Part shown: positions 17,223 to 33,396 of the stretch, piece by piece
How positions within the stretch are numbered: the first letter of the stretch is position 1
Layout: every line of letters starts with the position of its first letter
Origin: Flavobacteriaceae bacterium
GTDB taxonomy: Bacteria > Bacteroidota > Bacteroidia > Flavobacteriales > Flavobacteriaceae
Length of the DNA: 33,397 nt
Assembly: GCA_029252265.1 (NCBI GenBank)
Contig: JAQXBT010000064.1
Span: forward strand, 1 to 33,397
Direction of reading: 5' to 3'
The notes under the pieces: model-generated
Database searches by the model: none
What the model saw: the letters and a program-made list of their open reading frames with translations, nothing else
What the model was told of the DNA's origin: nothing
Translations under genes and position numbers: made by a program

Positions 17223-17335
17223 CCCTTTGTTAATAGCGCCTCCCACTTTGTAAGTGATTGGTTTTCTATGTAATAGGCATTAAAATACTGCATTTTATCG
17301 AATTAATTTGCCGTTTATAGAAATTTATTAACAAT

Positions 17336-17365
17336 GTGGTAAATAGTGGTAAAATGTGGTAAATA
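17336..17365 (+). promoter_or_regulatory. MraZ operator: three tandem 10 bp repeats
   Basis: GTGGTAAATA, GTGGTAAAAT and GTGGTAAATA lie head to tail with exact 10 bp period, one helical turn. In E. coli MraZ binds repeats of a TGGG core with the same 10 bp period, and mollicute MraZ boxes contain AAAGTG(T/G); here the core reads AAA-N2-GTGG. They end 5 bp before the -7 element of mraZ and cover the -33 region, where no TTG is present. That is the position expected for autoregulation of the dcw operon. Binding is inferred, not shown. Confidence 0.75.
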
Positions 17366-17370
17366 TTTTT

Positions 17371-17378
17371 TAGCTTTG
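17371..17378 (+). promoter_or_regulatory. mraZ (dcw operon) -7 promoter element
   Basis: TAGCTTTG matches TAnnTTTG perfectly, 34 bp before the GTG start of mraZ and directly after the operator repeats. Confidence 0.65.
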
Positions 17379-17412
17379 AATTCAACAATTTATTAAATCA
17401 GCGCAAAGCAAA

Positions 17413-17880
17413 GTGAATACTCTAATCGGAACATATGAATGTAAGGTGGATGCAAAAGGGAGACTTATGCTTCCTGTTGCATTTAAAAAGCAGCTTGCTT
17501 CAGTGGTGGAAAAAGGGTTTGTATTAAAGCGAGCTGTATTTCAGCCTTGTTTGGAGTTGTATCCAATGCAGGAGTGGGAGTCCATGATGCAGAACGTTAA
17601 TAAGCTCAATCGATTTAAAAAGAAGAATAATGATTTCATCAGGCGTTTTACGGCTGGTGTAAAATCGATTGAATTAGATGTTTCAGGGCGTTTACTAATC
17701 CCCAAGGATCTTGTGAGTTTTGCGGGGATATCTAAGGAAATTGTCGTGACTTCTGCAGTAAATATTATTGAAATCTGGGATAAAGACCAGTATGAAAAAG
17801 CAATTGATGATGCGGCCAATGATTTTGCAGATTTGGCGGAAGATGTAATGGGTCAAGACGATGCAGATGGATTATCATAA
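17413..17880 (+). CDS. mraZ: Transcriptional regulator MraZ
   Basis: MraZ is the DNA-binding regulator that heads most bacterial dcw clusters and represses its own promoter in E. coli. The 155-residue protein has two SpoVT/AbrB-like repeats, each with the conserved D-x-x-G-R core: GTYECKVDAKGRLMLP (6-21) and IELDVSGRLLIPKDL (near 92-106). The start is GTG at 17413, chosen because homology (NTLIGTYECKVDAKGR) begins there and no earlier start fits. Its tail overlaps rsmH by 20 bp. Three operator repeats sit just upstream of its promoter. Confidence 0.96.
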   Translation: MNTLIGTYECKVDAKGRLMLPVAFKKQLASVVEKGFVLKRAVFQPCLELYPMQEWESMMQNVNKLNRFKKKNNDFIRRFTAGVKSIELDVSGRLLIPKDLVSFAGISKEIVVTSAVNIIEIWDKDQYEKAIDDAANDFADLAEDVMGQDDADGLS

Positions 17881-18775
17881 CCCAGTATTACTCGAAGAAA
17901 CCGTCAACGGTTTAAATATAAAAAAAGACGGTGTGTATGTTGATGTCACGTTTGGTGGCGGAGGTCACAGCAGAAGCATCCTCGAATCATTAGGTCCTAA
18001 TGGAAGGTTGATCGCTTTTGATCAGGACAAAGACGCTCTTTTAAATACAATAGATGATTCTCGATTTTTATTAATCAATGAGAATTTTAGATATATCAAA
18101 CGGTTTTTGAGATTTCACGGAGTCAAATCAGTTGATGGGATTTTAGCTGATTTTGGAGTTTCTTCTCATCAATTTGATGAAGCTGAAAGAGGTTTTTCAA
18201 TTCGATTTGACGCTCAATTGGATATGCGGATGAATCAGGAAGATGTGGTATCGGCTCATTCGCTTGTTAACACCTACGATGAAGAAGATTTGAAACGTGT
18301 GTTTTGGCAGTACGGCGAGTTACGGACGTCACCAGCGCTGGCAAAAACTATTGTAGCCGCAAGACAAGAGGCTCCAATTGAAACGACTTTTGAATTAAAG
18401 ACGGTTTTAAAAAAGCATTTACCATTTGGGAGAGAGAATAAAATTTTAGCTCAGATCTATCAAGCGATTAGAATTGAAGTGAACCAAGAAATAGAGGTTC
18501 TAAAAGAATTTTTGTTGCAAACGCCAAGTTTATTAAATGTTGGTGGACGGCTGAGTGTAATCTCCTACCATTCACTCGAAGATCGCCTAGTGAAGCGTTT
18601 TATAAGAAATGGATTGTTTGAAGGGGAGCCTGAAAAAGATGTTTTTGGCAATTTTGAAGTGCCATTGAAAAAAGTAGGGAGTCTGGTTGTTCCGGATGCT
18701 GCAGAAATAAAATTAAATAACAGAGCACGAAGTGCGAAACTACGAATTGCTGAAGCGTTAAATCCAAATATATAA
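17861..18775 (+). CDS. rsmH: 16S rRNA (cytosine(1402)-N(4))-methyltransferase
   Basis: RsmH (MraW) methylates C1402 in the 16S rRNA decoding centre using SAM. The 304-residue length is normal. The N-terminal MDYHNPVLLEE is the family start, SAM-binding VDVTFGGGGHS is at 27-37 and the acidic Asp54 is in AFDQDKDAL. DFGVSSHQFDEAERGFS (97-113) and VISYHSLEDRLVKRF near 234-248 follow. ATG 17861 and ATG 17867 are both possible starts; each overlaps mraZ. The stop abuts the ftsL ATG with no gap. Confidence 0.97.
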   Translation: MQMDYHNPVLLEETVNGLNIKKDGVYVDVTFGGGGHSRSILESLGPNGRLIAFDQDKDALLNTIDDSRFLLINENFRYIKRFLRFHGVKSVDGILADFGVSSHQFDEAERGFSIRFDAQLDMRMNQEDVVSAHSLVNTYDEEDLKRVFWQYGELRTSPALAKTIVAARQEAPIETTFELKTVLKKHLPFGRENKILAQIYQAIRIEVNQEIEVLKEFLLQTPSLLNVGGRLSVISYHSLEDRLVKRFIRNGLFEGEPEKDVFGNFEVPLKKVGSLVVPDAAEIKLNNRARSAKLRIAEALNPNI

Positions 18776-19096
18776 ATGAAAAACAGGATGTATAATATTT
18801 TAAAAGGAACCTTTCTGGTAAGCGATGGTGCCTTTAAAAATTGGCGTCTTATTTTCTTTTTTCTAGCACTTGCAATCATAATGATCGCCAGTTCGCACAG
18901 TGCAGATGGTAAAGTTCATAAGATTGCAAGACTCAGTGAACATGTCAAGGCGCTGCGGTCTTCTTATGTAGAAACTCGGGCTCAGTTAATGGAACTTAAA
19001 ATGGAGTCTGTTATTAGAAAGCGGTTAGCAGATCAAGGAGTAAAACCTTCGTCCAATCCGCCCTTTAAAATTATTATTAAAACTAAATCTAACTAA
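18776..19096 (+). CDS. ftsL: FtsL-like cell division protein
   Basis: A 106-residue bitopic protein. It has a cytoplasmic N-terminus of about 23 residues and one membrane helix (about 25-42, LIFFFLALAIIMIASS). A periplasmic coiled-coil-like helix (about 48-85, HKIARLSEHVKALRSSYVET) follows. This layout, the size and the position between rsmH and ftsI identify it as FtsL, which with FtsQ activates septal wall synthesis by FtsW-FtsI. Primary sequence conservation in FtsL is always low, so the call depends on topology and context. It abuts rsmH directly, and ftsI starts 4 bp after its stop. Confidence 0.87.
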   Translation: MKNRMYNILKGTFLVSDGAFKNWRLIFFFLALAIIMIASSHSADGKVHKIARLSEHVKALRSSYVETRAQLMELKMESVIRKRLADQGVKPSSNPPFKIIIKTKSN

Positions 19097-19100
19097 CAAA

Positions 19101-21110
19101 ATGGAATCCACTAAAAATTCTATAATGAACAAGCTTTACTTCACTTCTGGAGTGATGTTCATTTTTGCGATTTTAGTGGTGTATAAATTAGTGACGATTC
19201 AATTTGTGAAAGGTGCATATTATCGAGGTCTTGCAGAAGATCGGACTACAAAAAATGTTAGAATCCCTGCAAATCGTGGAAATGTATATTCTGTGAATGG
19301 AAACTTATTAGCAACCTCAGTTCCAAAATATGATATTCGGCTTGATTTGGTGGCGTCATCTGACAAGAATTATGAAGCTTTAATTGAGTCTTTATGCGAT
19401 TCGCTTGCAAGTTTTCATGGAACACCGTCTGCAGAATTTAAGCGCAAGTTGCGTTTGGCAAGACAAAATAAAAGTCGTTATTTTTTGTTAGCGCGCAATT
19501 TAGGCTACTCTCAATATTTAAAATTTAGAGAATTCCCTCTATTGAGTTTAGGCGCTTTTAAGGGTGGGCTTATTGTAGAGCAATCCACCAAGCGTGATTA
19601 TCCAATGGGGGCGATTGCACAACGATTAATAGGCTATGAGCGTTTTGACGATCTAGGTAATGTCACTCGTGTTGGGATCGACGGTGCATTTGGTGAAAAA
19701 TATTTAAGAGGTGATGATGGTCAACGGCGCAAACAGAAAATTGGAAAAGGCCAATGGAAGCCAATTGATGATTTTAACCAATTGGAGCCAAAAGATGGTT
19801 ATGATGTGTATACCACTATAGATGTTAATATTCAAGATATTGCGCATCATGCGCTTTTAGAGCAGTTAGAGAAATACAAGGCAGACCATGGCACTGTGGT
19901 AGTAATGGAAACTAAAACAGGCGAAGTCAGAGCTATTTCTAATTTGGGTCGAAATAAAAAAGGGTTGTATTATGAACGGCTCAATTATGCTGTTGGCGAA
20001 TCGCATGAACCTGGATCTACATTTAAGTTGATGGCTTTGGCTGTTGCTTTAGAAGATAAGGTGATTGATACCACAACCATTGTGGATACCAAAAAAGGGG
20101 TTTTGTCTTTTTACGGCAAAAAGGTAAAGGATTCTAAAAAAGGAGGCTATGGAAAAATTTCGATAGCGAAGGCTTTTGAAGTGTCTTCGAATACAGCAAT
20201 TGTCAAAGCAATACATACAGCTTATAAAGGTCAGCCTGAAAAATTTGTAGATGGGTTGTATAGGATGAATCTTCAGGACTCATTGGGACTTCCGTTGATT
20301 GGAGAAGGAAGCTCGATCATTCCAGATCCAAGAATTAAAAACGGTCGCTGGAGTGGAATCGCTTTGCAATGGATGGCGTATGGGTATGGTGTCTCTTTTA
20401 CACCGCTTCAAACCCTCACGTTTTATAATGCCATTGCTAATGATGGGGTTATGGTACGTCCAAAGTTTTTGCGTGAAATAAAAGAAATTGAATCGTCTAT
20501 TGAAACTTTTAACACGGAAATCATCAACCCTCGAATCTGCTCAAAAGAAACCGTCTTAAAATTACAGCAATTGCTCAAGAATGTAGTTGAAAAGAAGCAT
20601 GGAACAGGGCGTAGACTCTATTCTGACGAATTTTCAATGGCAGGCAAAACTGGGACCTGTCAAAAGGATTACGTAAACAAAGATCAACTAAATTATATTT
20701 CTTCGTTTTCTGGGTATTTCCCAGCAGATGATCCAAAATATTCTTGTATTGTCGTGATTCACGAGCCCGATAAAAGTGTAGGATATTATGGTGCTGACGT
20801 GTCAGGGCCAGTCTTTAAAAAAATCGCTCAAAAAATATACACAGATTCTCCAGTTATTGATGAGGTTCAAGACGTAAACCAAAAATCGGAATTCGTAGAG
20901 GCTAGTTATGATCAGTATTATGCTGTGGCACAAAAGTATAAAACCATCATGCCAAATTTGAAAGGGATGTCGGCAATGGATGCGATTTCTATTTTAGAAA
21001 ACATGGGGCTGAAAGTACAAATTGTTGGAAATGGAACGGTTTCAGGGCAATCAATTAAAAGTGGTCAAAAAATAAAACCACAATCGTTAATAACACTTGT
21101 CTTATCGTGA
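19101..21110 (+). CDS. ftsI: Septal peptidoglycan transpeptidase FtsI (PBP3) with PASTA domain
   Basis: Class B penicillin-binding protein that crosslinks septal peptidoglycan. The 669 residues comprise a membrane helix (about 13-33), a pedestal dimerisation domain and the transpeptidase domain with SxxK (Ser306-Thr-Phe-Lys309), SxN (Ser362-Ser-Asn364) and KTG (516-518). A single C-terminal PASTA domain follows (about 617-669, MPNLKGMSAMDAISILENMG). PASTA is usual in Gram-positive PBPs and also found in Bacteroidetes FtsI, but absent in E. coli FtsI. The TGA stop overlaps the murE GTG start (GTGA). Confidence 0.96.
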   Translation: MESTKNSIMNKLYFTSGVMFIFAILVVYKLVTIQFVKGAYYRGLAEDRTTKNVRIPANRGNVYSVNGNLLATSVPKYDIRLDLVASSDKNYEALIESLCDSLASFHGTPSAEFKRKLRLARQNKSRYFLLARNLGYSQYLKFREFPLLSLGAFKGGLIVEQSTKRDYPMGAIAQRLIGYERFDDLGNVTRVGIDGAFGEKYLRGDDGQRRKQKIGKGQWKPIDDFNQLEPKDGYDVYTTIDVNIQDIAHHALLEQLEKYKADHGTVVVMETKTGEVRAISNLGRNKKGLYYERLNYAVGESHEPGSTFKLMALAVALEDKVIDTTTIVDTKKGVLSFYGKKVKDSKKGGYGKISIAKAFEVSSNTAIVKAIHTAYKGQPEKFVDGLYRMNLQDSLGLPLIGEGSSIIPDPRIKNGRWSGIALQWMAYGYGVSFTPLQTLTFYNAIANDGVMVRPKFLREIKEIESSIETFNTEIINPRICSKETVLKLQQLLKNVVEKKHGTGRRLYSDEFSMAGKTGTCQKDYVNKDQLNYISSFSGYFPADDPKYSCIVVIHEPDKSVGYYGADVSGPVFKKIAQKIYTDSPVIDEVQDVNQKSEFVEASYDQYYAVAQKYKTIMPNLKGMSAMDAISILENMGLKVQIVGNGTVSGQSIKSGQKIKPQSLITLVLS

Positions 21111-22570
21111 AAACTTTAAAAAACATACTGTACAAGGTTTCAATTGAATCGGTCATAGGGTCTACCGACCGGTCAATTACGGCGCTTCACTACGATTCTC
21201 GACGTGTGGAAGCAGGTACTATTTTTGTAGCGATCAAAGGCGGGGTTTTTGACGGGCATGCGTTTATCTCAAAGGCTATTGAGTTGGGAGCGACCGTCAT
21301 TGTTTGTCAGGAGTTCCCAGAAAAAATAGTTGGCACCATTACGTATGTAAAAGTTGATGATTCTCAAAGAGCCTTGGCGATCATGGCGTCTAATTATTAT
21401 GAAAATCCATCCGAAAACTTAAAGCTTATCGGAATTACTGGGACCAATGGGAAAACAACCATCGCGACACTGCTTTATGAATTATTTAAAAACGCAGGAT
21501 ATAAGGTAGGGCTCATTTCTACTGTAAAAATTATGGTCGATACGAAAGCGTATCCGACAACCCACACCACTCCAGATTCTCTAATAATTAATAAGTATTT
21601 AAGTCAAATGAATTCCGAAGGTGTGGAGTTTTGTTTTATGGAGGTTAGTTCTCACGGCATTCATCAGTCTAGAACTGAAGGGCTTTTGTTTGCAGGGGGG
21701 GTGTTTACAAATTTATCGCATGACCATTTAGATTACCATGCCACGTTTGCAGAATATAGAGACGTTAAAAAATCATTTTTCGATCAGTTGCCGTCTTCTG
21801 CATTTGCTTTGGTGAATGGCGATGATAAAAACGGGTCTGTGATGGTGCAAAATACTAAGGCAAAACACTACACGTATGCCTTAAAAAGTTATGCCGATTT
21901 CCGAGTTCAGATTTTAGAAAATCAATTTCGAGGCTTGTTGTTGAAAGTAAATGACCATGAAGTGTGGGTCAAATTAATAGGCAATTTTAATGCCTATAAT
22001 CTAACCGCAATTTATGGCACTGCTGAGCTTTTAGGCTTGGAAACTTCTGAAACGCTTCGGCTCATGAGTGCGCTTGATAATGTTAATGGCAGATTTGAAT
22101 ATTTTATATCAAAAACAAATATTACGACGATCATCGATTATGCACACACGCCAGATGCTTTAAAAAATGTACTCGAAACGATCAATACGATTAGAACCAA
22201 AAACGAAACTTTAATTACAGTGGTGGGTTGTGGTGGCGATCGCGATACGACCAAACGTCCAAAAATGGCGCACATTGCTTCTGCATTGAGTACAAAAGTA
22301 ATTTTCACAAGTGATAATCCAAGGTCTGAAAATCCAGATCAAATTATTGCTGAAATGGAAGTGGGGGTTGCTCCTCAAAATTTTAAAAAGACACTGTCTA
22401 TAACAGATCGTAAACAGGCGATCAAAACAGCGTGTCAATTAGCACAACCTAACGATATCATTTTGGTGGCAGGCAAAGGACATGAAACATACCAGGAGAT
22501 TAAGGGCATTAAAAGTACGTTTAATGATTACAAAATAGCTGGAGATTTTTTAACTCAATTACAAAAATAA
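21107..22570 (+). CDS. murE: UDP-MurNAc-tripeptide synthetase MurE (meso-DAP adding)
   Basis: MurE adds the third amino acid to UDP-MurNAc-Ala-Glu in the cytoplasm. The 487-residue Mur ligase has the P-loop GTNGKTT (112-118). [12 protein letters not shown] is near 176 and the C-terminal DNPRSENP begins at 403. The DNPR motif is the known marker for meso-diaminopimelate specificity, so this organism should have DAP-type peptidoglycan. The start is a GTG that overlaps the ftsI stop, which decides the N-terminus ([11 protein letters not shown]). It is one base from mraY. Confidence 0.96.
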
Positions 22571-22571
22571 T

Positions 22572-23804
22572 ATGTTGTACTACTTGTTTAAATATTTAGA
22601 AGAAACCTATCAGTTTACGGGGGCCTCTCTATTTGGGTTTTTGACGTTTAGAGCTGCTGTCGCAATTATTTTGTCTTTGCTAATTTCTACAATTTTCGGA
22701 AAACGGATTATTCGTTTTCTTCAAAATCAACAAGTTGGTGAGACCATTAGAGACCTAGGTTTAGAAGGGCAAAAGGAAAAGGCAGGAACTCCAACGATGG
22801 GCGGAATTATCATCATTTTAGCCACGGTCATACCGGTGCTTTTATTGGCAAAATTAGATAATATATATATTATTTTATTGCTCGTTACAACTATATGGAT
22901 GGGGGCAATTGGGTTTCTTGACGATTATATCAAAAAGTTTAAAAATGATAAAGAAGGTTTAAAAGGCAGGTTCAAGATTTTGGGTCAAGTGGGTTTAGGA
23001 ATTATTGTAGGAACAACTTTGTTTTTTCACAGTGACGTCACAATCAAGGAGAAAATTCCAACGGATTTACAGCTTGAGGTGGTGTCCAATCAACAATCCG
23101 CTATCCAATTTTACCCAGAAACAAAATCGACCAAAACGACCATCCCTTTTGTAAAATCAAATGAGTTTGATTATGCCGATTTAATTACTTGGATTCACCC
23201 TAGTTTAGAGAAATATGCATGGATTGTATTTGTGTTAGCAGTCATTTTTATTATAACAGCAGTTTCCAATGGCGCCAATTTAACAGATGGAATTGATGGT
23301 TTAGCTGCAGGAACTTCTGCGATTATCGTATTAACACTTGGTGTTTTTGCATGGGTGTCAGGTAATATTATTTTCTCCGATTATCTAAATATAATGTACA
23401 TCCCAAGGGTCGAAGAAATTACTATTTATATCGCTGCGTTTGTTGGTGCATTGATCGGGTTTTTGTGGTACAATACCTATCCTGCTCAGGTGTTTATGGG
23501 CGATACAGGAAGCTTAACAATAGGTGGGATTATCGCTGTGATTGCGATTGCGGTTCGAAAGGAATGGTTAATCCCGGTATTGTGCGGAATTTTCTTAGCA
23601 GAAAATTTATCTGTGGTACTTCAAGTGGGTTATTTTAAATATACCCGAAAAAAGTATGGTGCTGGGCGTCGCATATTTAAAATGTCACCGTTGCATCACC
23701 ATTATCAAAAATCAGGATACCACGAGAGTAAAATTGTTACTCGCTTTTGGATTGTGGGTATTCTGTTGGCAATATTAACGATCGTCACTTTGAAAATTCG
23801 ATAG
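22572..23804 (+). CDS. mraY: Phospho-N-acetylmuramoyl-pentapeptide-transferase MraY
   Basis: MraY links UDP-MurNAc-pentapeptide to undecaprenyl phosphate, forming lipid I in the inner membrane. At 410 residues it is about 50 longer than E. coli MraY. Catalytic signatures are Asp117-Asp118 in [20 protein letters not shown] (236-245), Asp311 in FMGDTGSL and the HHH motif at 375-377. The extra length is a hydrophilic stretch at about 155-212, between membrane helices, which looks like the periplasmic insertion of Bacteroidetes forms. It abuts murD with no gap. Confidence 0.97.
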
Positions 23805-25136
23805 ATGAAACGATTGGTGGTTCTTGGTGGGGGTGAAAGTGGCGTAGGTGCTGCCCTGTTAGGGAAAGAAAAAGAGTACAAGGTGTTTCTTTCTGATTCA
23901 GGAAAGATTGCACAAAAATTTATAGACGTTCTTATACATAATGAGATTGAATGGGAAGATGGAGGTCATACGGAGTCCAAAATTTTGAATGCAGATTTGG
24001 TCGTTAAAAGTCCTGGAATTCCAGATGATGTTGCTTTGATTAAAAAATTACATAAAGCAACTATTTCTGTGATTTCTGAAATTGAATTTGCGAGTTTATT
24101 TACAAAGGCAACGATCATTGGGATTACAGGAAGTAATGGGAAAACCACGACCACAATGATGGTTCATTATATTTTGAGTCAAGCGGGGTTGGATGTCGCG
24201 ATTGGTGGAAATATTGGCGATAGCTTTGCGAAGCAAGTTCTAAATAACAATGCCAATTACGTTTTGGAACTGAGTAGTTTTCAATTAGACGGTATTGAGA
24301 AATTCAGACCACATATAGCGATTATCACCAATATTACACCCGATCATTTGGATCGCTATGATTATAAATTTGAGAACTATATCGCTTCAAAATTTAGAAT
24401 CGCAATGAACCAAACATCGGATGATTATTTGATATATGACGCAGATGATGCGGTTATCGTGTCTTATATAAACACCCATCCAATTCAATCAACATTAGTG
24501 CCTTTTTCACTTCGTAAAAAAGTGAAAAATGGAACGTATTTAGAACAAAACAATATATTAATCGAATTTAACAATAAAGATATAATTATGTCAACATCAA
24601 ACTTAGCTTTAGAAGGAAAGCACAACATCAAAAACGCGATGGCGGCATCAACAGTTGCTCATCTTTTGAAAATCAGAAAAGCAACCATAAGAGAAAGTCT
24701 AGAGGGATTTCAAGGGGCAGAGCATCGCTTGGAACAAGTCCTTACCATCAATAAAGTAAAGTACGTAAATGACTCCAAGGCAACGAATGTGAATGCGACT
24801 TATTATGCCTTAGAAAGTATGAATGCCCCAACGGTTTGGATCGTTGGTGGGGTTGATAAAGGAAATGATTACAGTTCTTTATTTCCTTTTATCAATGAAA
24901 AGGTCAAAGCAATTATTTGCTTAGGAAAAGATAACGAGTCTTTATTTGATGCGTTTGGAAATATGGTAGATACCATCATAGAAACACAGTTTATGAGCGA
25001 AGCAGTTAAGATTGCTTATAAAATTGCGACGCCAGGGGAGGCTGTTTTGTTATCGCCTGCTTGTGCAAGTTTTGATTTATTTGAAAATTATGAAGATCGA
25101 GGTCAACAATTTAAAGCCGCTGTAAGACAGTTATAA
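23805..25136 (+). CDS. murD: UDP-N-acetylmuramoylalanine--D-glutamate ligase
   Basis: MurD adds D-glutamate to UDP-MurNAc-L-Ala in the cytoplasm. The 443 residues include the N-terminal nucleotide-binding fold (LVVLGGGESGVGAALL), the P-loop GSNGKTT (109-115), ELSSFQLD in the central domain and HRLEQV followed by VNDSKATN, which binds the nucleotide in the C-terminal domain. The length is normal for the family. The start ATG follows the mraY stop immediately, and the stop shares its last A with the ftsW ATG (TAATG). Confidence 0.97.
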   Translation: MKRLVVLGGGESGVGAALLGKEKEYKVFLSDSGKIAQKFIDVLIHNEIEWEDGGHTESKILNADLVVKSPGIPDDVALIKKLHKATISVISEIEFASLFTKATIIGITGSNGKTTTTMMVHYILSQAGLDVAIGGNIGDSFAKQVLNNNANYVLELSSFQLDGIEKFRPHIAIITNITPDHLDRYDYKFENYIASKFRIAMNQTSDDYLIYDADDAVIVSYINTHPIQSTLVPFSLRKKVKNGTYLEQNNILIEFNNKDIIMSTSNLALEGKHNIKNAMAASTVAHLLKIRKATIRESLEGFQGAEHRLEQVLTINKVKYVNDSKATNVNATYYALESMNAPTVWIVGGVDKGNDYSSLFPFINEKVKAIICLGKDNESLFDAFGNMVDTIIETQFMSEAVKIAYKIATPGEAVLLSPACASFDLFENYEDRGQQFKAAVRQL

Positions 25137-26329
25137 TGAAGACAGTTTTTGATAACATAAAAGGAGATCGAATTATTTGGGCTATTGCGGCCTTGCTAGC
25201 AATATTCTCATTCCTACCCGTGTACAGTGCAGCCAGTAATTTGGCTTACATTGGAGGGGGTAGCACGACTTTTAGTTATTTCATCAAACACTTTGTACAT
25301 TTATTCTTAGGGTTCTCAATTATTTATGGAGTACATAAAATCCCCTATCGTTATTTTAGAGGGTTATCGATGGTGATGATTCCGGTGGTTTTAGTCTTGT
25401 TGTTAATTACAATGCTTCAGGGTTCAACCATTGGAGGTGCGAATGCCAGTCGATGGATTCGAGTTCCAATTGTTGGATTTACGTTTCAGCCATCTACCTT
25501 AGCTGCGCTGGTGTTAATGGTTTTTGTAGCACGGTATTTATCTAAAATAAAAGACGAGATTGTTTCCTTTAAAGATTCTATTCTTCCGTTGTGGTTGCCA
25601 GTGTTTGTGGTGTTAGCGTTGGTGCTTCCTGCTAATTTTTCTACGGCTGCACTCATATTTTCAATGGTTATTTTACTAACATTTTTGGGAGGCTATCCAT
25701 TAAAATATTTAGCAATTATCATCGGTTCTGGCGTTGTCGTTTTGATGTTTTTTGTATTAACTGCCAAAGCGTTTCCAGATTTGATGCCGAATCGAGTGGG
25801 CACTTGGACAAGTCGAATTTCGAGTTTTATGGATACAGATGCGACTCAAGAAGCTTATCAAATTGAGAAAGCTAAAATTGCCATCGCAACTGGCGGAATT
25901 CAAGGACTAGGCCCTGGAAAAAGTGTTCAAAAAAACTTTTTGCCCCAGTCATCATCCGATTTTATTTTTGCTATTATTATTGAAGAATATGGGTTGATTG
26001 GAGGGATTTCATTGCTAGTCCTTTATTTATGGTTAATGTTTAGGATTGTAATTGTGGCGCAAAATTCAGATACGGTCTTTGGAAAATTATTAACCGTGGG
26101 CGTTGGGATTCCCATCGTATTTCAGGCCTTGGTCAATATGAGTGTTGCAGTTGAGTTGTTTCCAGTTACAGGACAAACACTGCCGCTTATAAGTAGCGGA
26201 GGGACCTCTATTTGGGTTACTTGCTTGGCACTTGGTATTGTGTTGAGTGTAAGTACCAAGCGAGATGAAGAAAAAGCACAAAATTATGATGAGAAACACC
26301 CTTTAGAAATATTAAGCGAAGCACTTTAA
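25136..26329 (+). CDS. ftsW: Septal peptidoglycan glycosyltransferase FtsW (SEDS family)
   Basis: FtsW polymerises lipid II into septal glycan strands together with FtsI. The 397 residues have about ten hydrophobic segments, beginning with [20 protein letters not shown]. The SEDS signature region lies near the C-terminus: [19 protein letters not shown]. RodA is the alternative SEDS protein, but the position between murD and murG favours FtsW. It overlaps murD by one base, and its last base overlaps murG. Confidence 0.96.
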
Positions 26330-27423
26330 TGAAGCACTATAAAATCATATTATCAGGTGGAGGAACAGGGGGGCATATATACCCTGCGATTGCCATTGCA
26401 AACGAATTAAAATCTCGGTTCCCAAAATCTGAGTTTTTATTTGTAGGCGCCAAGGATAAAATGGAAATGCAAAAAGTACCTCAAGCTGGGTATCCAATAA
26501 TCGGTTTATGGATTGCTGGACTTCAAAGAAAGTTAACGCTCAAAAATTTATTGTTCCCAGTCAAATTACTACTGAGTTTGTTTAAATCAATGGGTATTAT
26601 TAATTCATTCAAGCCTGATGTTGTCATTGGTACTGGTGGTTTTGCCAGTGGACCTTTATTACAAGTGGCTGCCATGAAAGGGGTGCCGACTTTGATACAA
26701 GAACAAAATTCATTTCCAGGGATTACCAATAAATTATTATCTAAAAAAGCACATAAAGTATGTGTTGCCTATGATGGCTTAGAACGATTTTTTCCTAAAG
26801 AAAAATTAACCCTGACTGGAAACCCCGTGCGACAAGATTTGCTGGATTTAGATCAAAAAAGAGCAGAAGCAATTTCGTTTTTTAAACTAGAGCCCAATAA
26901 AAAAACACTCTTGGTATTAGGCGGAAGTTTAGGGGCGCGCCGAATGAATCAACTTATTGAATCAGAATTAGATTTTTTTAAAGATTTAGGAATTCAATTG
27001 GTGTGGCAATGTGGGACGTTATATCAGAAAGATTATGATCTCTATAATTCGAGCGAACAGGTACAAGTTCATGCGTTTTTAAACCGAATGGATTTGGCGT
27101 ATGCAGCCGCCGATATTGTGATTTCAAGAGCAGGCGCAAGTTCAGTTTCAGAACTTTGTGTTGTTGGAAAGCCGGTAATTTTTATTCCGTCTCCAAATGT
27201 GTCCGAGGACCATCAAACCAAAAATGCGTTGGCTGTTACCGAAAAAAATGCGGCCATCCTAATAAGTGAAAAGGATCTAGAATCAAGTTTTGAAAAGCAG
27301 TTTTCAGAACTTTTAGCATCCGAATCACATCAAGAATTATTGGCAACAAACATTAAAAAACTAGCTTTAAAAAAAGCAACTCAATCCATCGTAGATGAAA
27401 TCGAAAAGCTATTAGTTAAATGA
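26329..27423 (+). CDS. murG: Lipid II synthase MurG
   Basis: MurG transfers GlcNAc to lipid I at the inner face of the cytoplasmic membrane. The 364-residue GT-B glycosyltransferase has the N-terminal glycine loop [11 protein letters not shown] (10-20), GTGGFASGP (about 101-109), [13 protein letters not shown] and the donor-binding [13 protein letters not shown]. It overlaps ftsW by 1 nt and murC by 4 nt (ATGA). Confidence 0.97.
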
Positions 27424-28772
27424 ATTTAAAAACAATCCATAACGTCTATTTTATCGGTATCGGAGGTGTTGGTATGAGTGCGCTTGCGCGGTATTTTGTT
27501 GCTGCTGATAAAGGGGTTGGTGGGTATGATAAAACGCAGACGACTCTTACGGACGCTCTGGTTGATTTGGGAGTTGATGTTCAGTTTGAAACGGCTGTTG
27601 ATCAAATTAACACCCGCTTTATGGATCCATTGAAAACATTGGTTGTCTACACGCCAGCTATTTCTGACTCAAACCCGATATTACACTATTTCAAGACCGC
27701 TAATTTTCAAATTTTAAAACGCTCTGCAGTTTTAGGTCTTATCACAGAACATACAAAATGTTTGGCAGTTGCTGGGACCCATGGCAAAACAACGACGAGT
27801 AGTATTTTGGGTCATTTGATGTATGAATGTGATGAAAAAGTCACCGCTTTTGTTGGGGGTATTTCTGAAAACTATCACTCTAATTTGATTCAAAATGGAA
27901 TTGAAATATCGGTGGTGGAAGCAGACGAGTTTGATCGCTCCTTTTTAACATTGAGTCCCGACTTTGCGTGCATCACATCCATGGACGCAGATCATTTGGA
28001 TGTATATAGTTCAGAGACTGATTTAGTGGATGCGTTTAAGCAGTTTACTCAAAAAATTAAACCATCTGGAAAACTATTTATAAAAAAAGGATTGCCTTTA
28101 CAAGGGATCACTTATGCTGTGAATGAGCCCGCGGATTATAGTGCTCTTAATATTCGTATTGAAAATGGGTCGTATCAATTTGATATACAAACCCCATCTG
28201 GTTTGATGAAAAACCTAAGCTTTCACTTACCAGGAGAACATAATCTCTCAAATGCTTTGGTCGCGATGGCGATGGCCTTGGAATTTGGATGTTCTGAAAC
28301 GGCGTTAAAAGCAGCTTTAGAGTCGTATCAAGGCGTCAAAAGGCGTTTTACGTATCAAATTAAAACAAATGATTTTGTGTTTATAGATGATTATGCACAT
28401 CACCCCACCGAAATTAATGCGGTATACCAAGCGGTACGTGAAATGTATCCGACTCAAAAAGTAGCTGTTGTGTTTCAGCCACACCTGTTTAGTAGAACGA
28501 AAGATTTTGTGGATGAGTTTGCAGAAAGTTTATCTCAGTTTGAGGCCGTTTTCTTATTAGAGATTTACCCAGCAAGAGAGCAGCCAATTGCGGGGGTGTC
28601 CTCGAGTTGGTTGCTAGAAAAAATCACGAGTCCAGTAAAAAAAGTAATATCAAAACCAGATATAGTTCATGAAATTCAGAGTTTAGGCTATCCTATTTTC
28701 ATGACGCTTGGTGCAGGTGATATAGGCGTGGAAGCGTCCGAACTAAAACAAAAATTAAGTCATGCGTATTAA
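27420..28772 (+). CDS. murC: UDP-N-acetylmuramate--L-alanine ligase
   Basis: MurC adds L-alanine to UDP-MurNAc, the first amino acid of the stem peptide. The 450 residues begin with a dinucleotide-fold signature [13 protein letters not shown] (11-23), the P-loop GTHGKTT (119-125), [10 protein letters not shown] and [10 protein letters not shown], the latter a MurC/Mpl marker. Mpl is less likely because of the operon position between murG and ftsQ. The ATG overlaps the murG stop (ATGA). The last 11 bp overlap ftsQ. Confidence 0.96.
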
Positions 28773-29481
28773 TTGGAATATCATAAAAGGGTTGTTTCTG
28801 CTAGGGCTAGTGGTGTTTTTGTATGCCTTTTCATCCTTTAAAAATAATGAGCGTTCTGTGTCTAAAGTAGCGGTTCAATTTACAGGAAACGACAACGTTT
28901 ATATTACGACCGAAATGGTTAATAAATTGTTAATACAAAATCAAGAACAACTGTATATTTTACCAAAAGATAATTTAGATTTGAAGGAGATGGAGTTTTT
29001 ACTTGAGTCAGACGACATGATTAAGTCCGCTCAAGTGTATCTTACTGTAAACGGAGAAGTTAGGGCTAAAGTAGAGCAAAAACGACCCATTGCAAGGGTT
29101 CATGCAGAGACCACATTTTATATTGATGAAGACGGCTTTTGGATGCCATTGTCCCCTCAGCATAGCGCGCGAGTGCCGTTGATTACGGGTGTTGTGGATA
29201 AGGAGGATTTAAATGGCGTCTATACATTGGCGTTAAAGATTTTTAAAGATTCGTTTTTAAAAACCTATATCACAGAAATTCAACAAGATGAAAATAATCA
29301 AATAATCCTAAAAATGAGATTATTAGATTTTGAAGTATTAGTGGGGAGTCTTGAAAATTTAGACCAAAAAATGAAAAATTTAAAAGCATTTTATCAAAAG
29401 GCAAACAAAGATAAAGTGTTAGATGTTTATAAAAGCGTGAATTTACAATTTGATAATCAAGTTGTTTGCACAAAAAAATAA
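28762..29481 (+). CDS. ftsQ: Cell division protein FtsQ
   Basis: A 239-residue bitopic protein with a short cytoplasmic N-terminus and a membrane helix at about 7-25 (IIKGLFLLGLVVFLYAFSS). A periplasmic POTRA-like segment (about 34-108, ending VEQKRPIARV) and a beta domain (YIDEDGFWMPLS onward) follow. Those last motifs are typical of FtsQ/DivIB, and the location between murC and ftsA supports the call. It recruits and regulates FtsL and the FtsWI synthase. Its start lies inside murC (11 bp overlap). Confidence 0.92.
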   Translation: MRINWNIIKGLFLLGLVVFLYAFSSFKNNERSVSKVAVQFTGNDNVYITTEMVNKLLIQNQEQLYILPKDNLDLKEMEFLLESDDMIKSAQVYLTVNGEVRAKVEQKRPIARVHAETTFYIDEDGFWMPLSPQHSARVPLITGVVDKEDLNGVYTLALKIFKDSFLKTYITEIQQDENNQIILKMRLLDFEVLVGSLENLDQKMKNLKAFYQKANKDKVLDVYKSVNLQFDNQVVCTKK

Positions 29482-29485
29482 GTGT

Positions 29486-30796
29486 ATGGAAGCTCAAAAA
29501 ATTTCAGTAGGATTAGATATTGGTACTACCAAAATTGTGGCCATGATTGGTCGTAAAAACGAGTATGATAAATTAGAAATACTTGGCATTGGAAAATCAA
29601 AAAGTCTTGGTGTCCACAGAGGGGTAGTTAATAATATTACTCAAACTATTCAGTCCATTCAACAAGCTGTTTCGGAGTCCGAAGCCAACTCAGGACTAAA
29701 AATCGGAGAAGTAACTGTGGGAATTGCAGGACAACACATTCGCAGTCTTCAACACAGTGATTACATCACGCGTGAAAACTCAGAATTAGTCATCAATGAA
29801 GACGATATTGAACGTCTCATTAATCAAGTGCATAAACTTGTAATGCTTCCTGGAGAAGAAATTATCCATGTGTTGCCACAAGATTATAAAGTAGATGGGC
29901 AGGCAGAAATTAAAGAACCTATTGGGATGTATGGCGAACGATTGGAAGCTAATTTTCATGTCGTCGTTGGGCAGGTATCTTCTATTAGAAATATTGGTCG
30001 TTGTGTGCAAACCGCCGGATTGGATTTAGAAGGAATCACTTTGGAACCTTTGGCTTCTGCCAATGCAGTGTTAAGTCAGGAAGAAAAAGAAGCAGGGGTG
30101 GCTTTAATTGATATTGGGGGTGGAACAACGGATTTAGCCGTTTTTAAAGACGGAATTATTCGCCATACTGCAGTGATCCCTTTTGGAGGAAACGTCATCA
30201 CAGAAGATATTAAAGAAGGCTGCTCGATTATTGAAAAGCAAGCAGAATTATTAAAAATAAAATTTGGATCTGCCTGGCCAGGCGAAAACAAGGACAATGA
30301 GATTGTATCCATCCCTGGTTTGAGAGGAAGAGATCCTAAAGAAATTACGCTTAAAAATCTGTCTAAAATAATTCATGCTCGGGTAGTCGAAATTATTGAG
30401 CAAGTGTATGTCGAAATTAAAAATTATGGACACGAAGAGCAAAAGAAAAAACTGATTGCTGGAATTGTGCTCACAGGCGGCGGAAGTCAATTAAAGCATT
30501 TAAAGCAATTAGTAGAATACATCACTGGAATGGACACTCGAGTCGGGTATCCAAACGAGCATTTGGCGGGCGATAGTGATAGCGATATTACAAGTCCAAT
30601 GTATGCGACAGCTGTTGGCTTGGTGATGGATAGTTTAATGCGACAAGACAAACGAGTTGACGAAATTCCTAAAGAAGAGGAAGTTGTTTTAGAAGATGAA
30701 ATCGCTCCACCTCCAGTAGAATCGCATCGAGATAACCGCAGTTTTTTAGATAAGTTAACCGAAAGAGTTAAAGACTTTTTAGATAACGCAGAATAA
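29486..30796 (+). CDS. ftsA: Cell division protein FtsA
   Basis: FtsA is an actin-like ATPase that anchors FtsZ to the inner membrane and activates septal synthesis. The 436 residues show the phosphate-1 motif DIGTTK (11-16), the phosphate-2 motif DIGGGTTD (209-216), ILTGGGSQLKHLK-type adenosine motif (VLTGGGSQLK) and a C-terminal amphipathic helix SFLDKLTERVKDFLDNAE (419-436) for membrane attachment. I chose ATG 29486 (MEAQKISVGLDIGTTK), 4 bp after ftsQ. An in-frame ATG at 29450 would add 12 residues inside ftsQ and is not supported. Confidence 0.97.
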   Translation: MEAQKISVGLDIGTTKIVAMIGRKNEYDKLEILGIGKSKSLGVHRGVVNNITQTIQSIQQAVSESEANSGLKIGEVTVGIAGQHIRSLQHSDYITRENSELVINEDDIERLINQVHKLVMLPGEEIIHVLPQDYKVDGQAEIKEPIGMYGERLEANFHVVVGQVSSIRNIGRCVQTAGLDLEGITLEPLASANAVLSQEEKEAGVALIDIGGGTTDLAVFKDGIIRHTAVIPFGGNVITEDIKEGCSIIEKQAELLKIKFGSAWPGENKDNEIVSIPGLRGRDPKEITLKNLSKIIHARVVEIIEQVYVEIKNYGHEEQKKKLIAGIVLTGGGSQLKHLKQLVEYITGMDTRVGYPNEHLAGDSDSDITSPMYATAVGLVMDSLMRQDKRVDEIPKEEEVVLEDEIAPPPVESHRDNRSFLDKLTERVKDFLDNAE

Positions 30797-30822
30797 AATT
30801 TATAACCAGTAAAATTAAGTAT

Positions 30823-32748
30823 ATGAGCAGCAGTAACGATTTTGGAATCACCTTCGATTTACCAAAAAACCAATCTAATGTCATCAAGGTCATTGGCGTT
30901 GGTGGGGGTGGAAGTAATGCGATTAACCACATGTTTAAGCAAGGAATTAAAGGGGTCGATTTTGTGATCTGTAATACCGATTCACAAGCGTTGAACAATA
31001 GTGGTGTACCCAATAAAATTCAACTTGGCGTCAACTTAACAGAAGGTTTGGGTGCGGGCGCCAACCCTGAAATAGGAGAGCAATCGGCGGTTGAAAGCCT
31101 GGAAGATATCCGTACCATGTTAACTTCTAATACCAAAATGGTATTTATCACTGCTGGGATGGGTGGCGGTACTGGAACGGGCGCTGCGCCTATCATTGCT
31201 AAAATGGCTAAAGAAATGGACATTCTCACGGTGGGGATTGTCACCATGCCATTTGAATTTGAAGGAAAAGTAAGAAACTCACAAGCCCATCAAGGGATCG
31301 AAAAGTTTCGAAAAACAGTTGATTCGTTGGTCATTATAAACAATAATAAGTTAAGAGAAGTTTATGGAAATTTAGGCTTTAAAGCTGGTTTTTCTAAAGC
31401 GGATGAAGTGCTTTCTACGGCTGCTCGTGGAATTGCAGAAGTCATTACGCACCACTACATGCAAAATATTGATTTACGAGATGCAAAAACAGTATTGAGT
31501 AATAGCGGAACTGCGATTATGGGGTCATCGACATCCTCGGGTCAAAACCGAGCACAAGAAGCCATCACAAGTGCCTTAGATTCTCCGCTTTTGAATGATA
31601 ATAAAATTACAGGTGCCAAAAACGTATTACTGCTCATCGTTTCTGGCGCTCAAGAAATTACGATTGATGAAATCGGTGAAATAAATGATCATATTCAAGC
31701 CGAAGCTGGTTACGGTGCCAATATCATTATGGGTGTTGGTGAAGATGAAACTCTGGGAGAAGCGGTGTCTGTGACGATTATTGCAACGGGTTTTGATGTC
31801 GATCAACAAAATGATATTACCAATACAGAGGTTAAAAAGGTGGTTCATGCACTCGAGGATGAGCAAACCATGCAGCACGACTTGATGCCACTTGCATCGT
31901 CAACAGCGACTGAAGTTATCTCGAATGAGGTGGTTGTTCATACTTTAGAAGAAACGCCAGCGACTGCAGTAACGGAAGAGGTTAGTGTAGCGGATCTTGT
32001 CTCAACTACCGATGCAATTAAAGCCATCGAAGTTGATTTTGAAGAATTAGATCTTGAGGTTGCGGAGGACGCTTTTATTATCAATGAAGTCACCACCATG
32101 CAGGTTGAAGACGATAATTTTGAAGCCATTCCAAAAGATCAAACAATGCTGTCATTTGATTTGCCAATTTCTAACAAGACATCAGTGTCAGAATCAGATA
32201 CCGTTGAAGTTTTTACTCTCGAGGATTCAAATGAAACGACTGTTGAGGCTGCAATTAATGAGATCGAAGTTAATGATTATATCGAATTAATCCCTGTTAC
32301 GGAGGCCAATGAAACCGGTGAAACTCGCTATGCTTTAGATGATCATATTGTGTTGCAACAAACCGATCAAAAATATGAAGGTAAAAAACAAGCGGTAAAC
32401 GTTGATGTAGAAGAAGAAATGGTCCTTTCTAAAGTGACCGTAAAAGAACGTACCGTGACTTCGGTACCAGAAGAGAATGTGGATCCATTTAATAACCCAA
32501 TCTCCAAAACACTTCGAGATCGTGCCGATGAAAGACGTCAAAAAATGAAAGCGTTTAATTATAAATTCAATACGTCTAAAATTGAAGAAATTGAAAAAGA
32601 ACCCGCTTATAAACGACAAGGTGTGAACTTGAATGATGTAGCCCATTCTTCGGATGTACAGTCTTCCAGAACAACGATTGGACTTGATGATAATGATGAG
32701 GTTCAACTGCGTTCAAATAATTCGTATTTACATGACAACGTCGATTAA
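30823..32748 (+). CDS. ftsZ: Cell division protein FtsZ (long C-terminal linker)
   Basis: Tubulin-like GTPase that forms the Z ring. The GTPase core (about 18-325) has GVGGGGSNA (25-33), the tubulin signature GGGTGTG (114-120) and NNNKL followed by the synergy helix. At 641 residues it is much longer than E. coli FtsZ (383). An acidic, low-complexity linker spans about 326-555. A conserved-looking basic region (DPFNNPISKTLRDRADERRQ) is followed by EPAYKRQGVNL (593-603), which resembles the FtsA-binding tail DIPAFLRKQ. A further 38 residues end in NNSYLHDNVD. It lies 26 bp after ftsA and ends the cluster at a terminator. Confidence 0.97.
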   Translation: MSSSNDFGITFDLPKNQSNVIKVIGVGGGGSNAINHMFKQGIKGVDFVICNTDSQALNNSGVPNKIQLGVNLTEGLGAGANPEIGEQSAVESLEDIRTMLTSNTKMVFITAGMGGGTGTGAAPIIAKMAKEMDILTVGIVTMPFEFEGKVRNSQAHQGIEKFRKTVDSLVIINNNKLREVYGNLGFKAGFSKADEVLSTAARGIAEVITHHYMQNIDLRDAKTVLSNSGTAIMGSSTSSGQNRAQEAITSALDSPLLNDNKITGAKNVLLLIVSGAQEITIDEIGEINDHIQAEAGYGANIIMGVGEDETLGEAVSVTIIATGFDVDQQNDITNTEVKKVVHALEDEQTMQHDLMPLASSTATEVISNEVVVHTLEETPATAVTEEVSVADLVSTTDAIKAIEVDFEELDLEVAEDAFIINEVTTMQVEDDNFEAIPKDQTMLSFDLPISNKTSVSESDTVEVFTLEDSNETTVEAAINEIEVNDYIELIPVTEANETGETRYALDDHIVLQQTDQKYEGKKQAVNVDVEEEMVLSKVTVKERTVTSVPEENVDPFNNPISKTLRDRADERRQKMKAFNYKFNTSKIEEIEKEPAYKRQGVNLNDVAHSSDVQSSRTTIGLDDNDEVQLRSNNSYLHDNVD

Positions 32749-33322: not shown

Positions 33323-33396
33323 GGCCCAGTAGTTCAACTGGATAGAATATCAGATTTCGGCTCTGACGGTTGGGGGTTCGAATCCCTTCTGGGTCA
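33323..33396 (+). tRNA. tRNA-Arg (anticodon TCG)
   Basis: A full cloverleaf can be folded. The acceptor GGCCCAG pairs with CTGGGTC (one G-T pair). The D stem is GTTC/GAAT and the anticodon stem is TCAGA/TCTGA around loop TTTCGGC. The T stem is GGGGG/CCCTT around TTCGAAT. The anticodon TCG at 33357-33359 reads CGN arginine codons. The discriminator A is at 33396. One C follows and the window ends, so whether CCA is encoded cannot be seen. Confidence 0.93.

Follow-up and report, generated by a model that had tools for sequence, protein, structure and literature searches.

The window, by which we mean the whole stretch of 33,397 nucleotides of Flavobacteriaceae DNA analyzed here, carries a dcw operon with the gene order mraZ-rsmH-ftsL-ftsI-murE-mraY-murD-ftsW-murG-murC-ftsQ-ftsA-ftsZ, the names being assigned from Pfam matches together with gene order. 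From mraZ to ftsZ (positions 17413–32748, 15.3 kb) all genes lie on a single strand, and they overlap or are separated by gaps of at most 26 bp. The MraZ protein matches PF02381 in two stretches (99.8 bits in total, with a cut-off of 23), and the DxxxR motifs of its two halves, DAKGR and DVSGR, read DSKGR and DGAGR in E. coli MraZ. The DxxxR motif of MraZ has a role in DNA binding, and the protein assembles into a ring of subunits; MraZ structures in the PDB include 9qlg, 9r4j, 9sx6, 9sz7, 9qlr, 1n0e, 1n0f, and 1n0g. An Rfam scan of the window returned nothing besides a tRNA gene at the window end (33323–33396).

Table 1. Features of the mraZ promoter region and of the division operon, in window coordinates
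Feature	Position	Strand	Description
Accessory element TTAT[CT]AACA	17325..17333	+	TTATTAACA; 2 bp upstream of box 1, about -58 to -50
Candidate MraZ box 1	17336..17345	+	GTGGTAAATA; read directly
Candidate MraZ box 2	17346..17355	+	GTGGTAAAAT; read directly
Candidate MraZ box 3	17356..17365	+	GTGGTAAATA; read directly
-7 promoter element	17371..17378	+	TAGCTTTG (TAnnTTTG); read directly
Predicted 5' leader	17383..17412	+	about 30 nt; start site inferred from TAnnTTTG at -12 to -5
mraZ	17413..17880	+	155 aa from a GTG start; DAKGR and DVSGR in its two MraZ repeats
Rest of dcw operon, rsmH to ftsZ	17861..32748	+	12 genes

Immediately upstream of mraZ, three direct repeats of GTGGTAAAWW follow one another with an exact period of 10 bp (17336–17365; hereafter the comb) and leave 5 bp up to TAGCTTTG and 47 bp up to mraZ, the interval between box 3 and TAGCTTTG reading TTTTT (17366–17370). 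The repeats, the 5-bp gap, TAGCTTTG, and the mraZ start had been described in an initial annotation and are all borne out by direct reading; its span of 17336–17378 is correct as far as it goes, but the conserved unit begins earlier, at 17325, with TTATTAACA. Exact GTGGTAAAWW occurs in the window in the three boxes only. With up to one mismatch allowed, the window contains 20 matches versus 16.2 ± 3.9 in shuffled sequences, which is not above chance, so that the tandem arrangement is the significant part. The pattern GTGGN6GTGGN6GTGG has one match, and its reversed control none, in the 1.89 Mb searched of the genome from which the window derives (88.9% complete).

The element TAGCTTTG fits the -7 consensus of Bacteroidota sigma-A promoters, given as TAnnTTTG in passages of PMC7366714 and PMC9723704, the second of which places it at -12 to -5. 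Relative to the start site predicted on this basis, the comb covers approximately -47 to -18. No stable fold was found for the leader, the segment 17384–17470 folding more weakly than most of its shuffles (z = +1.2). The TTTG or TTG that marks the -33 region of a Bacteroidota sigma-A promoter is absent, and its register is occupied by the TGG of box 2 (17347–17349), which lies 24 bp upstream of the TA of the -7 element. In 400 kb of one genome of the same genus together with the window, TTG shows a weak peak 22–24 bp upstream of TAnnTTTG (13 occurrences over 67 sites, with 27 spread over the other 15 distances). The TGG of box 2 falls within this peak, and the claim that the repeats overlie the -33 region is thus positionally right. 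In F. johnsoniae, according to a passage of PMC7366714, no -33 motif could be identified, so that any block exerted from the comb would consist in occupying the place rather than in masking a strong element.

Conservation of the comb and its occurrence with mraZ

Lack of conservation among relatives, which would speak against the function proposed in the initial annotation, was not observed: the repeats are kept across related genomes. The family was sampled with 119 genomes, 118 of which have mraZ; with the second genome of the window's own genus left out, this gives 117 mraZ upstream regions, one per genus. Three GTGG cores at 10 bp, with at least 11 of the 12 letters, are present in 116 of these (12/12 letters in 104 and 11 in 12), the remaining genus, G343, having 9. 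Shuffled versions of the family regions reach 11 letters in 1 of 5850 cases, and the regions contain no exact GTGG triple at any other period between 5 and 16 bp. Among near relatives the comb is found at all 110 loci (107 distinct upstream sequences), with 12 letters in 103 and 11 letters in 7, and variable bases separate the fixed GTGG cores. No second GTGG triple was seen elsewhere in 358 kb of their flanking sequence, of which one strand was examined. Exact TAnnTTTG begins 34–36 bp after box 1 in 114 of the 116 genera. The near identity of the three units in the window could by itself suggest a neutral 10-bp tandem repeat, produced by chance or by replication slippage; retention in 116 of 117 genera, with fixed cores and variable bases between them, and the rarity of such scores in shuffled regions rule this origin out and leave it a negligible probability.

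In the genus of the window, 16 of 18 genomes contain exactly one exact triple, in each case directly upstream of mraZ, and the two genomes without a triple (G001 and G016, 74% and 76% complete) have no mraZ match either. With the exact three-box site occurring once per genome of the genus where it is found, a statement that covers exact triples and not weaker or two-box sites, MraZ function could be studied there at one promoter.

The initial annotation further held that the core of the repeat had shifted in this lineage to GTGGTAAA, a view that the comparison overturns. Upstream of mraZ in E. coli K-12 (L265) the sequence reads GTGGGAAATT GTGGGGCAAA GTGGGAATAA, that is, GTGGG three times with a period of 10 bp. 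The M. gallisepticum mraZ promoter oligonucleotide is given in PMC5282649, in the part available, as GTGTTAAAAA GTGTGAGAAA GTGGGAAAAA, and the Mollicutes MraZ site as (AAAGTGKN3)3, where K is G or T (Fisunov et al. 2016; passages of PMC5282649 and PMC8475190). Among near relatives of the window, 75% of the loci have T and 21% have G as the fifth base of box 1, and of the flanks of the three boxes the TAAAA of box 2 is conserved best. A GTG/GTGG core is therefore common to E. coli, Mollicutes, and these relatives, and the supposed shift amounts to one degenerate base on a shared core.

Genomes that lack mraZ provide a further comparison. G256, the only one of the 119 family genomes without a match, has only 6 of the 12 comb letters before rsmH, which is still followed, in our reading, by reading frames resembling ftsL and ftsI. 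Among seventeen other genomes without an mraZ match, rsmH was located in 14; a contig end truncates the region in G016, and in the 13 readable upstream regions the best comb has 10 of 12 letters (G158, a GC-rich genome; p = 0.035 before correction for multiple tests) and the rest at most 9. The absence of mraZ was assessed with the MraZ protein of the window in G001, G016, G047, G048, G051, and G256 and with PF02381 in the other 12 genomes. The comb thus accompanies mraZ and is missing where the gene is missing, in keeping with MraZ as its reader. The entire promoter may have been lost or replaced in the mraZ-less genomes, and this co-loss therefore does not prove which protein binds. In one further genome (G347, L392), the mraZ match contains a single internal TGA and the comb in its upstream region is intact.

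A protein other than MraZ might read the comb, with mraZ merely a neighbor, and the second conserved element, TTAT[CT]AACA, does show that another protein may act at this promoter. We consider this very unlikely, as the core, the period, and the adjoining gene match the MraZ boxes of E. coli and Mollicutes, no convincing comb was seen in genomes without mraZ, and the genus has one exact triple per genome.

TTAT[CT]AACA and additional boxes

TTAT[CT]AACA is found just upstream of box 1 at 105 of 108 near-relative loci, beginning at -11 in 77 and at -12 in 28 (L054 and L067 were left out, as no start was found). In the wider sample it precedes the comb in 106 of 116 genera, at -11 in 94, at -12 in 10, and at -21 in 2, and TTATNAACA is present in 110 of the 116. 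By eye, it could be recognized at 14 of 20 loci from 13 other Flavobacteriales families, moved by one 10-bp slot in family f5 and absent from f6 and f9. Because its spacing from the comb differs by 1 bp between loci, the element is probably read by something other than the reader of the comb. It does not occur within 400 bp of rsmH in four genomes of the order that lack mraZ (G047, G048, G051, and G256). It was also considered as a general promoter element and rejected as such: TTATYAACA-N36-40-TAnnTTTG occurs at mraZ in 9 of 10 genomes, its 7 other hits are not recurrent by eye, and the reversed control gives 10 hits.

The TTAACA within TTATTAACA can be combined, across 16 bp, with the TAAAAT within box 2 into a partly E. 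coli-like promoter, which a pattern scan reports at 17328–17355 with 10 of 12 letters and which would draw on the strong TAAAA of box 2. This arrangement is scarcely credible and was rejected, since the final T of TAAAAT is only 53% conserved (A in 42%), the spacing of the two elements shifts by 1 bp in part of the family (the 28 loci at -12), and the scan finds 3 promoter-like sites in comparison with 2.1 in shuffles. Bacteroidota, moreover, use TAnnTTTG according to passages of PMC9723704 and PMC7366714.

As to what reads TTATYAACA, DnaA is a lead, no more. In the part of PMC4674748 available, domain IV of Cyanothece DnaA footprints the origin region of the linear chromosome, the boxes listed include TTATCAACA, and two DnaA boxes of this origin lie 10 nt apart; the window copy, TTATTAACA, is two mismatches from TTATCCACA. 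Paired TTATCMACA was found at 6 sites in 5 of 12 genomes, with 0 in controls, the sites of G031 and G087 lying inside open frames. Pairs of TTATCAACA with 20-bp spacing lie upstream of dnaB in G191 (L450) and between HU and fmt in G175 and G191 (L448, L453), these gene names being our reading of the translations. The dnaB upstream region of G009 (L312), which was chosen for inspection because of the paired sites in G191, contains TTATTAACA and TTATAAACA at 20 bp, and TTATNAACA is thereby seen as a 20-bp spaced pair upstream of dnaB in two genera (G009 and G191).

The neighborhood of dnaA, compared in 20 relatives, shows no enrichment of TTATYAACA (1.26 vs 1.25 per 10 kb); the wider GTTWTCMACA is enriched (1.26 vs 0.30 per 10 kb, 8 hits), and TTWTCMACA reaches 3.47 vs 1.93 per 10 kb, in counts that include the dnaA coding sequence and hence are not clean. 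TTATCCACA is rare around dnaA (2 hits in 63 kb), and, tried as an origin marker in three genomes, it never had two sites less than 1 kb apart. An intergenic region of G053 (L452) holds a cluster of five sites of the TTATCCACA/TGTGGATAA type, possibly a replication origin.

Additional boxes occur on both sides of the conserved unit. A fourth GTGGK box lies at -21 from box 1, beyond TTATYAACA, in 18 of 116 genera, and the other 22 upstream occurrences of GTGGK are scattered, with at most 2 at any position. Downstream, the start codon reads GTGGT in 8 of 113 genera, and 7 of these 8 are in phase with the comb versus 17 of the 105 others (Fisher p = 6e-5, uncorrected for relatedness and from a test set up after the boxes had been noticed). 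In phase denotes an offset modulo 10 of 9, 0, 1, or 2, the boxes lying 61–62 or 71 bp from box 1. The 113 genera exclude G265, G263, and G191, for which no start was found, and G343 with its comb of 9/12 letters; the start codon was taken 15 bases before a conserved Gly codon, where 6 of the 113 rows have no usual start codon. Among near relatives, 23 of 108 loci carry GTGGKAR within the leader or at the start codon, at 60–62 or 70–71 only. Several genera, for example at L025, L065, and L019, have a GTGGTAAAT box that covers the GTG start codon or lies in the leader and keeps the phase of the comb. The window has neither a start-codon box nor a leader box, and its start codon lies 77 bp from box 1. 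Over 172 loci, the offsets of extra GTGGK modulo 10 show a weak preference, 8, 9, and 0 accounting for 18 of the 32 distinct family-offset pairs; the start-codon comparison by genus is the cleaner of the two. What is new here is the presence of TTAT[CT]AACA beside the comb and of in-phase start-codon boxes in some genera, the window not being one of these.

These elements may be tied together in a compound switch of the Flavobacteriales, in which a putative MraZ operator would be combined with TTAT[CT]AACA, 2–3 bp upstream of box 1 in the family, where a replication-linked regulator (most likely DnaA) would bind, and in which a start-codon box would, in some genera, let the MraZ ring hold both ends of the promoter. 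We regard this reading as possible but doubtful; if it were true, the level of MraZ and replication initiation would jointly set transcription of the division operon.

Promoter layouts and the direction of control

Of 198 genomes sampled across the phylum, 186 have mraZ. An exact triple is present somewhere in 100 of the 198, in many cases not at mraZ, and by our count 38 contain the reversed control pattern, so that outside the family a triple alone proves little. Outside the family the comb is weaker, with 65 of 110 examined regions scoring 11 or 12 of 12 letters; the 110 regions comprise 90 picked by family, not at random, from the 198 genomes and 20 from other Flavobacteriales families, with genome G040 counted twice (L188 and L269). 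Many of the remaining regions have two clear boxes by eye, several families have only two, and in a few regions outside the family no comb was seen, some of these being anchoring errors (for example, G147).

Two arrangements of comb and promoter could be distinguished. In the Flavobacteriales layout the -7 element follows the comb, and box 2 falls in the -33 register. Outside the order, 16 of the 27 sampled families have TTGAC no more than 60 bp upstream of box 1, and in these a -7-like element adjoins box 1 by eye; families f19, f22, and f23, also outside the order, have the Flavobacteriales layout. When rows with at least 10 of 12 letters are compared (20 of 220 rows with fewer being left out), the 69 rows from outside the order divide into 42 with TTGAC upstream, 7 with TAnnTTTG downstream, 20 with neither, and 0 with both. 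The corresponding figures for the 131 rows from inside the order, 110 of them from the family, are 113 with TAnnTTTG downstream only, 10 with both, and 8 with neither. E. coli resembles the TTGAC-type layout in our reading of L265. An old comb that is retained while the promoter moves around it favors steric repression, or occlusion, over a dedicated contact with polymerase.

The three repeats are very probably the autoregulatory operator of MraZ, through which the protein would exert negative feedback on the dcw operon. This assignment draws on the MraZ repeats and DxxxR motifs of the protein, the conservation of the comb in almost every genus sampled from the family and in much of the phylum, the uniqueness of the exact triple, its absence from genomes without mraZ, and the core shared with E. 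coli and Mollicutes, and binding and repression are deduced from these comparisons. Neighboring subunits of the MraZ ring would each read one box, approximately one helical turn apart, over about -47 to -18, and bound MraZ would deny the sigma factor and RNA polymerase access to the -33/-7 region. Accumulating MraZ would in this way turn down mraZ and the 15-kb division and wall operon, as an autoregulatory brake.

Activation deserves consideration as the opposite outcome: in the Flavobacteriales, MraZ at about -47 to -18 might replace a missing -33 contact and recruit polymerase. The distribution of TTGAC fits such a role, since it is found upstream in 16 of 27 families outside the order and in 10 of 131 rows inside it, where the comb takes up the -33 register, and box 2, which occupies that register, has the best-conserved flank. 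MraZ, however, represses the dcw genes in E. coli and M. genitalium (a passage of PMC8475190), and with no identifiable -33 motif reported for F. johnsoniae in the passage of PMC7366714 no substitute would be needed. The comb also overlaps the polymerase site, and it is kept in lineages where it lies on or near +1, a position from which activation is implausible. We therefore hold activation to be unlikely and retain repression by MraZ as the preferred reading.

Relation to known MraZ operators

Through this comparison a large phylum joins E. coli and Mollicutes, in which the MraZ operator has been studied; among the matches listed in the open-access literature, none dealt with MraZ boxes in Bacteroidota. 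It raises the questions of which conserved element sets the expression of the division genes, whether MraZ acts as a repressor where the -33 region is replaced, and what reads TTATYAACA.

In the Mollicutes the boxes are likewise three at 10 bp with an A-rich spacer, and M. genitalium has a single MraZ site in its chromosome, at mraZ (PMC8475190, in the part available), much as the genus of the window has one. The Mollicutes core is GTGT or GTGG in the passages available, whereas here it is GTGG with T as the fifth base, and TTATYAACA, which is present here, does not occur in the 40-base M. gallisepticum oligonucleotide as given in the available part of PMC5282649. Other Bacteroidota families, such as f36, f42, and f47, share with the window GTGG boxes at 10 bp upstream of mraZ, but they have TTGAC upstream of box 1 and a -7-like element by box 1, so that the comb there would cover the start site. 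The E. coli MraZ operator (Eraso et al. 2014, as cited in a passage of PMC8475190) consists, as here, of three GTGG boxes at 10 bp upstream of mraZ, and differs in having G rather than T as the fifth base. Its boxes lie near the gene and downstream of TAAACT, which we read as the -10 element in L265, whereas those of the window lie upstream of the -7 element and beside TTATTAACA; judged from these layouts, the predicted operator of the family sits on its promoter differently from the E. coli version.
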